A stretch of 64,000 bases of DNA from Candidatus Melainabacteria bacterium RIFCSPHIGHO2_02_FULL_34_12 (GTDB taxonomy: Bacteria; Cyanobacteriota; Vampirovibrionia; 2-02-FULL-35-15). Numbering within the stretch: the stretch's first letter is position 1; each line of letters begins with the position of its first letter. The notes below the pieces were generated by a model that saw only the letters and a program-made list of their open reading frames with translations, did not search any database and was not told the DNA's origin. The stretch spans positions 28,367-92,366 of the forward strand of contig MFRM01000005.1 in assembly GCA_001784555.1 (NCBI GenBank), given 5' to 3'. A program made the position numbers and the translations under genes. This document shows, one piece after another, positions 52,457 to 59,900 of this stretch.

Positions 52457-54991
52457 TTATGGCGTAAGACCGCAAGTTACACGGAAACCTGCTTGATCAC
52501 TTGTAAATGAATCTGCATTTGTCAGATCTAGTGCAAGAGGTGCAGGTGAGTCAGTGTTTGAAGTCCATGAACCGCCACGAACAGGAACAATGGTTTGATT
52601 TGTTGAACTGGTTAAAATCTTACCGCTGTTTTTACCGCCATTTGTATCTGTAGTTGAGCCACTATCTACTGGTAAACCAAGTGCTTTTAAATCGGGATCC
52701 TGTGAAATATCATCGAAGTTAAAAGTACTGTTGTTAGTAGTAAAAGGAAGTGTCCTTCCAGCTCCAGTAAATCCGGAATCAATAGTCCAGACTCCTGCTC
52801 CTGCTGTTCCGGTACGTGTAACAGTGAAGTCAACTAGTTCTTTGACATTACCTATAAGATCATAGACCTGAAGGTCTCCGTCAAAGGTATCAGCTCCTGT
52901 TCCACCGCTATCATCTTTAATCGTGTCAGCAGTAGCACCAAGAGCTCCTTGTCCAGCACCACTTCCTGATTTTGTATTGCTTATAGATGAACCATCGAGT
53001 AAATGTCCCCAGCTCTTAAAGCCAGTTCCTGTAAGGCATCTATCAGTTGTTGCTCCACCTTCGATTGGATCATCACTGCACTCGAAGCTTGAGCTGTTTC
53101 TTCCATCTCTTGCTCCTCTTGTGTTTCCTCTTTCATTCCAACCGTTAGTTGTGTCAGCTCCAAATTTCCCAGAGACTTTTGAATATCTTCCAAGAATATA
53201 GAGTGCTTGTAGTTCTTTCATGGTTAATAAATGACAACTACCTATAGTAGTAATTTGTCTGTTTGCATGAGAAGCAGCTGTCTTTGCTGCAGCATAAGTT
53301 ATGCTTCCCCAAGGAACTACGTTCCTTTGGCTGGCTGCATTTGATGATGCTCCTGCATCAGAAGCTGTAGCATCAGATCTGGATGCTTCATATTTATCAA
53401 TCCAGAAACCTCCATATATAATTCCATCACTTAAGACATCCCGAAACTGTGGAATTTTTACCATTCTTGCCATTGCACTACCGACAGTAGTGAAGCTTTG
53501 TTCACTGGACAATGTATCCCAGTTTGCAATTAATTCTTCAACAGTAGGAAGTCCCTGACAATCAAGGGCATTATATGAACCATCTCCATTAACATCTTCA
53601 GATGAATCATTAGTTCCATTGCCGTTTGAATCCCAACAATTTGTACCGTTAGTTCCATTTGTACCATTAGTTCCATTTGTACCGTTGGTTCCATTTGTAC
53701 CGTTGGTTCCATTTGTACCATTGGTTCCATTTGTACCATTGGTTCCATTTGTACCATTGGTTCCGTCTGTACCCGTATCACCCTGTGGAACACCATAAGT
53801 AAGGGTACATGCATTTGAATCAAGAGTAACTGTTGCCATTGAACCTGCAGCAAGAGTGTTTGTAATAGTGGTTGGTGTTTGTGTTCTATCATTACAAAGC
53901 CCCATGCCATCAGCTCCAGTTCCAGCATTGACACCATTAAATCCTATAGGGATTCCAAAGGTAAGATTACAAAGTAAAGGATCAAAAAATACAGATGCTT
54001 GTGTACCTGCAGTAAGATTATTCGTAAAAATCATAAGCATGTCTGTAATATTGTTACAAACACCAGTGCCATCCATTCCATCTTCACCACTTTCACCAGC
54101 TGGTCCCTGAGGTCCAGCTATAGCATCTGGGGTAAGTGGATCAGTTCCAAGCCCGCTTGAAACACTTACAAAAACACCGTTTACAAGAGTAGCTGTAGAA
54201 TCAGTAAATGGATCTGTTGCAGTTACATTGCGAAAACCAGCTAATGCACTAGTAGTAGCAGTAGCTTTTACTTTCAATAAAGTATCATCGTCAATATTTT
54301 CTATACTGTTTATCTGAATAGTGCTGTCTCCAAATGATATATCAGTAAGAGAGTCAAATCCATTACCTAGAACAGTAAGAACTGTTTCAACACCGCGTGA
54401 AATAATTGAAGGAATAATTGCATCTATTCTAAATTCAGGTTTTGTATAAATTGTGGTTGTGGTTGTTTGAGAACCATCTACTGTAGCAGTTACACTATAG
54501 ATTCCAGGTAAAAAACCTTTTACAAAGACATTTACTACCTTATAGTCTGTTCCTTCAATGATTAAAAATTGGTTTTGTTTCTTGTTTAAATTAAAAATTA
54601 CTGGTTTGTTCTTTTTTGACTTTAGAATTCCATCTAATATTTGAGGATTGGTTTCAGCAGTTCGAAGATTTTTTATACTTAAAATCTTAAGCCCATCCAT
54701 TGCAAGCGTATTTTCATCTATTCCAAGCCCACCTGACTCAGCTCCTGTAATTTCAACTGCTACTGACACTGCGTTTGCATTAATAATTACCTGTATAGGT
54801 GTCTTTCTGTTAAGTTCAATGTTATATCTATCCCGTCTAAACTGCGGCAATAAAATACTTGCCAGATTTTCCTGTGCAAGAAATGTTTTAACCTTAGCAG
54901 GCCCGTAGTAAAGTGCCTGTGCACCTGTTTGCGATAGCAGTATTGTGGACAGCATTACAATGCAAAATATTTTCTTAAGTAGTATCTTCAT
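52457..54991 (-). CDS. exported IPT/TIG - collagen-like (GTN)n - SUMF1-like protein
   Basis: Signal peptide; IDAIIPSIISRGVETVLTVLGNGFDSLTDISFG; (GTN)n tract; C-terminal IYGGFWIDKYEAS...ELQALY...VRGGSWTSNTDSPAPL...GFRVTC. Confidence 0.7.
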   Translation of the reverse strand: MKILLKKIFCIVMLSTILLSQTGAQALYYGPAKVKTFLAQENLASILLPQFRRDRYNIELNRKTPIQVIINANAVSVAVEITGAESGGLGIDENTLAMDGLKILSIKNLRTAETNPQILDGILKSKKNKPVIFNLNKKQNQFLIIEGTDYKVVNVFVKGFLPGIYSVTATVDGSQTTTTTIYTKPEFRIDAIIPSIISRGVETVLTVLGNGFDSLTDISFGDSTIQINSIENIDDDTLLKVKATATTSALAGFRNVTATDPFTDSTATLVNGVFVSVSSGLGTDPLTPDAIAGPQGPAGESGEDGMDGTGVCNNITDMLMIFTNNLTAGTQASVFFDPLLCNLTFGIPIGFNGVNAGTGADGMGLCNDRTQTPTTITNTLAAGSMATVTLDSNACTLTYGVPQGDTGTDGTNGTNGTNGTNGTNGTNGTNGTNGTNGTNGTNGTNGTNGTNCWDSNGNGTNDSSEDVNGDGSYNALDCQGLPTVEELIANWDTLSSEQSFTTVGSAMARMVKIPQFRDVLSDGIIYGGFWIDKYEASRSDATASDAGASSNAASQRNVVPWGSITYAAAKTAASHANRQITTIGSCHLLTMKELQALYILGRYSKVSGKFGADTTNGWNERGNTRGARDGRNSSSFECSDDPIEGGATTDRCLTGTGFKSWGHLLDGSSISNTKSGSGAGQGALGATADTIKDDSGGTGADTFDGDLQVYDLIGNVKELVDFTVTRTGTAGAGVWTIDSGFTGAGRTLPFTTNNSTFNFDDISQDPDLKALGLPVDSGSTTDTNGGKNSGKILTSSTNQTIVPVRGGSWTSNTDSPAPLALDLTNADSFTSDQAGFRVTCGLTP
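53638..53768 (-). repeat. 9/18-bp minisatellite encoding collagen-like (Gly-Thr-Asn)n
   Basis: gttccatttgtaccattg-type unit repeated. Confidence 0.85.
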
Positions 54992-55603: not shown

Positions 55604-55715
55604 TTAGTGTCCTCCTAATTGAGCCAGACATCATCGTCTTTACGAGACGCCATTGTCTACAACTTTAAAACTCTGGAAATAATTATATCAGATCTATTTA
55701 GGGGTGTATAAAGTT

Positions 55716-55844
55716 TTCGAGGATACAAGCGGGTGGCGCCAGAAGGGAAGGGTTCAGAGCGAGGAACTCTGTGACAAAGCTCTGAAGGGTACCTGCAGGC
55801 GACAGGACCCGCGCTGTAAAACAATATCCTCGAATGTTTTACAG
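55716..55844 (+). ncRNA. candidate structured/pseudoknotted RNA (orientation uncertain)
   Basis: TTCGAGGATA (55716-55725) pairs TATCCTCGAA (55825-55834), which is the loop of CTGTAAAACA/TGTTTTACAG (55814-55823/55835-55844); GCGGGT/ACCCGC; TTCAGAGC/GCTCTGAA. Confidence 0.55.
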
Positions 55845-56153
55845 ACCCTCTATTTAGTTAATCAAGTAAACGACTGTTAAGGAGCACATAGCAAAATATT
55901 TATTTTTTATTAATAACATTTTTCATACGCCTGGCTTACAAGCCGTATAAAAAAAGTCAGCTCTAGTAAAATCTTGTTAAAAACATATTATTAAAAATTT
56001 GTTCCCATATTATTTGTAATTTTTTAATTTTTATTCTTACAAACCACAGGCAAATACCACAAGACAAATTCTTCTTGAACCATTAGAATTAATACTAATT
56101 TTTACTACGGGATTTTTATATCTGGCTTTAAAACCCAGATAAGGAGAGCTTTT

Positions 56154-59784: not shown

Positions 59785-59900
59785 CTAGTACATTGTCAAT
59801 TAAGTTTCTTAACTTAGTTTCCTTGAAGGGTACCTGCAGGCGACAGGACCTGCAGTGAAGGAATAAGGAATGTTGATTAATTTATTTGACATTCTACTAG
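59785..59900. ncRNA. second copy of the 27-nt motif inside complementary arms
   Basis: Core 59824-59850 identical to 55783-55809; TTCCTT/AAGGAA closing stem; CTAGTA (59785-59790)/TACTAG (59895-59900). Confidence 0.4.

Follow-up and report, generated by a model that had tools for sequence, protein, structure and literature searches.

A hairpin module with a conserved fold, carried by a MITE in a Melainabacterial genome and dispersed through several phyla

Introduction

As a rule, small repeats in bacteria are lineage-specific, and where they come from is a gap of long standing. Rickettsia palindromic elements (RPEs) are palindromic repeats that occur in frame within functional protein-coding genes (PMC10969869). 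GTAG/CGTC REPs are short imperfect hairpins with conserved mismatches that are found in several phyla, mostly in intergenic positions, and cross-phylum families of GTAG REPs exist (PMC3733652). Among MITEs derived from insertion sequences, QMITE2 has 7-9 bp repeats, ends of 23-29 bp and a core (review PMC10969869).

The present analysis concerns a 64,000-nucleotide stretch of contig MFRM01000005.1, from Candidatus Melainabacteria bacterium RIFCSPHIGHO2_02_FULL_34_12 (genome G000), hereafter called the window. An initial annotation had proposed that positions 55716-55844 encode a discrete RNA of 120-140 nt folded as an H-type pseudoknot. I describe below a different organization, in which the window locus is a MITE whose interior is one copy of a widespread mobile hairpin module, the fold of which is probably kept for the module's own spread.

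Results

The window copy is a transposed unit

The complementarities on which the initial annotation was built are real. TTCGAGGATA (55716-55725) and TATCCTCGAA (55825-55834) are exact reverse complements and form the outer stem. CTGTAAAACA (55814-55823) and TGTTTTACAG (55835-55844) are likewise exactly complementary, and form the hairpin whose loop would engage in the pseudoknot. The coordinates are right, the internal pairings TTCAGAGC/GCTCTGAA and GCGGGT/ACCCGC are confirmed, and all the quoted sequences are correct. The locus is devoid of ORFs of at least 60 aa, and its folding energy lies below that of shuffled sequence (z = -4.1, 0 of 200 shuffles). The Rfam search that had been proposed as a check gave no match for the window locus; nothing relevant was found among the 4227 families of release 15 for this locus or for ten diverse copies, whether gathering thresholds or a relaxed E-value were applied.

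Perfect complementarities, low folding energy and the lack of an Rfam match would all suit a discrete pseudoknotted regulatory RNA gene, but this reading is contradicted by the other copies. The second hairpin is fully paired (10/10) in three of the 11 copies that share the ends of the window element, namely the window copy itself and its close relatives L038 and L039; the other eight have 5-6 of the 10 pairs, which is about the chance level, and do not keep the pseudoknot stem. Both the outer stem and this hairpin are pieces of the repeats of a MITE shell, hereafter shell A. The element extends from GGGTGTATAAAG (55702) to ACAGACCC (55848) and is flanked on each side by TCTATTTAG (Table 1), so that the outer stem is a transposon terminal inverted repeat bordered by a 9-bp target duplication. 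The region is moreover repetitive, with 26 copies in this one genome. A pseudoknotted RNA gene is accordingly very improbable. The TATAAA sequence upstream of the outer stem is indeed present, but it belongs to the terminal repeat, the commonest version of which in the genome reads GTGTAAAG there, and it is therefore not a conserved promoter.

The ends of shell A are imperfect inverted repeats of 23 bp. The terminal repeat was found, with at most 3 mismatches, in all eight genomes of the family, and a reversed control pattern gave no match. The target duplication is 9 bp long at the window copy, L038 and L040; four further shell-A copies have 9-11 matching flanking bp, and another four have shorter matches or none. 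The window copy is a non-autonomous MITE, moved as a transposed unit. No IS256-type transposase (PF00872) was detected in the eight genomes searched, which are drafts.

Table 1. Features of the window element and of a second carrier of the core in the window
Feature	Position	Strand	Remarks
Left 9-bp target-site duplication, TCTATTTAG	55693..55701	.	same 9-mer at both element ends
5' terminal inverted repeat of shell A, GGGTGTATAAAGTTTTCGAGGAT	55702..55724	+	recurs in the family; 9-bp duplications at other copies
Conserved hairpin core	55725..55816	+	covariance model match, 78.7 bits, E 2.9e-16; the model derives from relatives and close copies of this core
Helix P1, 5' strand GCGGGT	55729..55734	+	with ACCCGC 55807-55812; GGGU/ACCC nearly invariant
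5' purine of the swapping purine-purine pair	55736	+	partner 55802
Helix P2, 5' strand CGCC	55737..55740	+	with GGCG 55798-55801
Helix P3, 5' strand AGG	55744..55746	+	with CCT 55792-55794; 97.8% paired, double changes
Helix P4, 5' strand TTCAGAGC	55753..55760	+	with GCTCTGAA 55779-55786; double changes in 8/8 pairs
Conserved AGG bulge	55804..55806	+	between P1 and the G-C/R.R'/P2 stack; anchored alignment of copies
3' terminal inverted repeat of shell A, ATCCTCGAATGTTTTACAGACCC	55826..55848	-	
Right 9-bp target-site duplication, TCTATTTAG	55849..55857	.	
Second carrier, shell-B MITE (CTAGTACATTGTCAATTAAG ... TTGACATTCTACTAG), damaged	59785..59900	.	core 3' half only, 59825-59850

Elsewhere in the window, positions 52457-54991 encode on the minus strand an 844-aa protein with a collagen-like run, GTNGTNGTN.

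The conserved unit is the inner hairpin

What is conserved among the copies is the inner hairpin, a GC-rich unit of about 80-92 nt that occurs elsewhere without the flanks found in the window and that I call the core. Its stems display compensatory changes in homologues, and to this extent the undescribed conserved secondary structure put forward in the initial annotation is upheld. In an alignment of 60 diverse copies that was fitted to the covariance model, 95% of the cells are paired and double changes affect 16 of the 22 pairs. Covariation scored 0.441, whereas shuffles gave 0.150 and slid controls no more than 0.11. Because of this fitting, covariation was retested on 163 distinct cores from 31 genomes, using pairs fixed by the invariant ends. 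Helix P2 proved to be 97% paired across more than 25 pair combinations, with 618 Watson-Crick pairs, 16 G.T, 1 A.C and 17 other mismatches.

The position next to P2 is occupied by a purine-purine pair (A/G in 83 cores, G/A in 73, A/A in 4 and G/G in 3), that is, by A.G or G.A in 156 of the 163 cores. Since both orders are present inside each of six genomes (G000, G097, G098, G106, G290 and G281), the swap probably arose more than once. G55735 appears to pair with C55803, between this purine pair and the AGG bulge. The excess of G.T over A.C in P2 (16 versus 1, p = 0.0003, for copies that are not fully independent) marks the + strand as the one that folds, and suits RNA and single-stranded DNA alike.

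Two known structures were considered and rejected. A kink-turn at the P1/P2 junction would require a G.A pattern that is not matched, a 3-nt AGG bulge with a single purine-purine mismatch being a better description, and the conserved RYYYAAC/GTTRRRY ends of integron attC sites were not seen. A literature search for the core motif retrieved no description of it.

Copies are numerous and patchily distributed

BLAST yields 32 matches to the locus in G000. Near-complete copies number 5, and about 20 more consist of the inner part alone. With the covariance model, G000 has 26 copies, G097 29, G098 20, G099 14, and G100 and G106 10 each; G101 has 6 core copies, and some Deltaproteobacteria MAGs have 20-48. 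When 85,462 species genomes were searched with a pattern, 62 loci were retrieved, among them several evident chance matches in coding DNA; the loci belong to Melainabacteria, Caenarcanales, Deltaproteobacteria, Omnitrophota, Dormibacterota and actinobacterial MAGs. A broader model detected the core in 5 of 241 genomes of the window's own class, all in its own family, and in 22 of 47 genomes of the phylum of G098, with a maximum of 48 copies, in G253. In the phylum of G106 it is present in 4 of 239 genomes, each of which has 9-16 copies. Such a patchy, all-or-many distribution is the pattern of a mobile element. Collections of phages, plasmids and viral contigs gave no match.

One core, several shells

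The core was found in at least three MITE shells with differing ends: shell A, shell B (ends CTAGTRCA..GTCAA), which carries it in the window's genome, and shell C (GTAACTGTTCACC ends), which carries it in G097 with an 8-bp duplication at three copies. It also occurs shell-free in spacers, at the tips of locus-specific palindromes and in frame within genes. Conversely, in the sister genomes G010, G009 and G007, shell A encloses palindromes other than the core, of the TCATTGCGAG or TCATTCCC type (L306-L324 in G010; L227, L234 and L325 in G009; L230 in G007), and 9-bp repeats are visible around the G010 copies too. No empty shell A was seen among the copies read. In G006, the core 5' half of two copies, L067 and L068, contains an extra hairpin (CCGCCTGGGGCGAGG...), and one of them lies in shell A, the other in shell B.

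Each of the ten genuine copies in G106 is flanked by locus-specific arms with 14-33 bp of perfect complementarity. The mean arm score is 21.4 within a locus and 0.6 for arms taken from different loci, and just 3 other palindromes 12 bp or longer were found in 54 kb. Arm-flanked cores, with arms of up to 33 bp, are exemplified by L201-L207, L159 and L167 in G106 and by L339 and L342 in G363. Locus-specific arms are also present in G253, where they are shorter. Long arms are not universal, since they are short in G099 and G098 and almost absent in G299.

These observations raise the possibility, which I regard as tentative, that the core is an independent cross-phylum module which, on insertion or replication, makes a perfect inverted copy of its own flank. 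A core landing next to a transposon end would then acquire two inverted ends at once, and so might found a new MITE. The presence of one core exactly in the middle of three MITE families would thereby be explained, as would the locus-specific perfect arms in G106 and G363, and the idea fits the pattern of one core in many shells and one shell with many cores. Against it, the G253 arms resemble terminators, and insertion of the core into older palindromes would account for the arms nearly as well.

Position relative to genes

Copies are mainly intergenic, and many have a stop or start codon at a distance of 2-60 nt (G098, G099, G253, G299 and G106). No neighbour gene tracks the copies, the comparison of their surroundings having returned common housekeeping families only. 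The closeness to gene ends counts against a fold kept for the module's own spread, as a role in termination or mRNA stability would also fit, and the G253 arms, flanked by A and T runs, look like bidirectional terminators. The core could on these grounds be a host-serving cis element, a hairpin selected at gene ends and in operon spacers as a terminator or mRNA stabilizer. I consider this unlikely: the orientation of the core relative to genes is inconsistent even though an asymmetric motif (purine swap, AGG bulge and wobble bias) marks one strand, the distribution is patchy in the manner described above, and there are insertions within coding regions.

Four in-gene copies were analysed. In G299, a MutL gene (L344:26-1495, minus strand) contains an in-frame core, 29 codons long, in the linker that joins DNA_mis_repair to MutL_C. 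A GAF domain, which has 161 residues for 128 profile positions, and a GT9 glycosyltransferase likewise contain in-frame cores, as does a large membrane protein, in a variable loop that is shorter in its homologues. All four use the same frame of the core. An intron or a translational bypass was rejected, since the clear cases stay in frame and are free of stops; judging from these reading frames, in-gene copies are most simply translated through.

Candidate mobilizers

As a short, asymmetric hairpin whose conserved mismatch and bulge lie on one strand, the core recalls the REPs, and the cross-phylum GTAG families offer a precedent (PMC3733652). The core might then be moved as single-stranded DNA by a RAYT-like HUH transposase missed by the Pfam model. 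Several observations make this improbable. There is no conserved GTAG or CGTC tag at the hairpin base: GTAG occurs within 15 nt upstream of 5 of 166 cores, for about 8 expected by chance, and the CGTC excess downstream of the core is CGCGTCGT of the shell-A inner flank. Y1_Tnp is absent from 7 of the 12 genomes searched (G097, G099, G100, G101, G103, G104 and G107), including G097 with its 29 copies. Lastly, opposite core orientations are found within a few kb of each other, unlike what is seen for lagging-strand-tied elements.

Folding at the RNA level, with which the P2 wobble bias is consistent, would also suit a retroposed RNA, a bacterial SINE copied by a resident reverse transcriptase, and fold-back synthesis could produce inverted flanks. 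Yet RVT_1 was not found in G000, G097, G098 or G101, despite their 26, 29, 20 and 6 copies, and this origin is most unlikely.

Discussion

The core is dispersed at unrelated loci, in several shells or in none, and its fold is kept through compensatory changes. As the motif marks a single strand but the core is placed indifferently with respect to gene direction, the constraint on the fold would serve the copying of the core, and not the regulation of neighbouring genes. In the reading that I favour, that of a mobile module within a MITE, a folded single strand, DNA or RNA, would be recognized by a trans-acting machinery when the module is copied, and the fold would be kept for that purpose. 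Much of the spread in the window's genome would have occurred by hitch-hiking on transposase-mobilized shells. It counts against this reading that, of the mobilizers searched for (RAYT, reverse transcriptase and IS256 transposase), none is consistently present.

The core makes the origin of MITEs and the mobilization of transposase-less palindromes testable, because covariation allows a single asymmetric fold to be followed across several phyla and several transposon shells, and the covariance model finds further copies. The MutL-linker insertion adds coding insertions outside Rickettsia.

With IS-derived MITEs such as Nezha and QMITE2, the window element shares terminal inverted repeats, a target duplication, of 9 bp in the window copy, and the lack of an ORF. 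It differs in that its interior is not the remnant of one insertion sequence, the core being common to shells A, B and C, and in that shell A also encloses other palindromes in G009, G010 and G007. Palindromic repeats of the TCATTGCGAG... / TCATTCCCGCG... type are widespread in other bacteria; like the core, they form hairpins central in shell-A MITEs of the sister genomes G010 and G009, but their sequences are unrelated to it. RPEs, which are not known to have an identified mobilizer, are palindromic, roughly of the core's size, dispersed, and in frame in protein genes, as the core can be. The likeness is one of behaviour. The core differs in sharing a detailed asymmetric motif over several phyla and in being found inside MITE shells as well. 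GTAG/CGTC REPs resemble the core in being imperfect hairpins with a conserved mismatch, mostly intergenic and present in several phyla; the core is a longer, multi-helix hairpin, without their tag and without Y1_Tnp in most of the genomes searched. Given this RPE- and REP-like behaviour, and the lack of a REP tag, of a consistent RAYT and of an Rfam relative, the core is best read, by analogy, as a small dispersed palindromic mobile element that is apparently undescribed.
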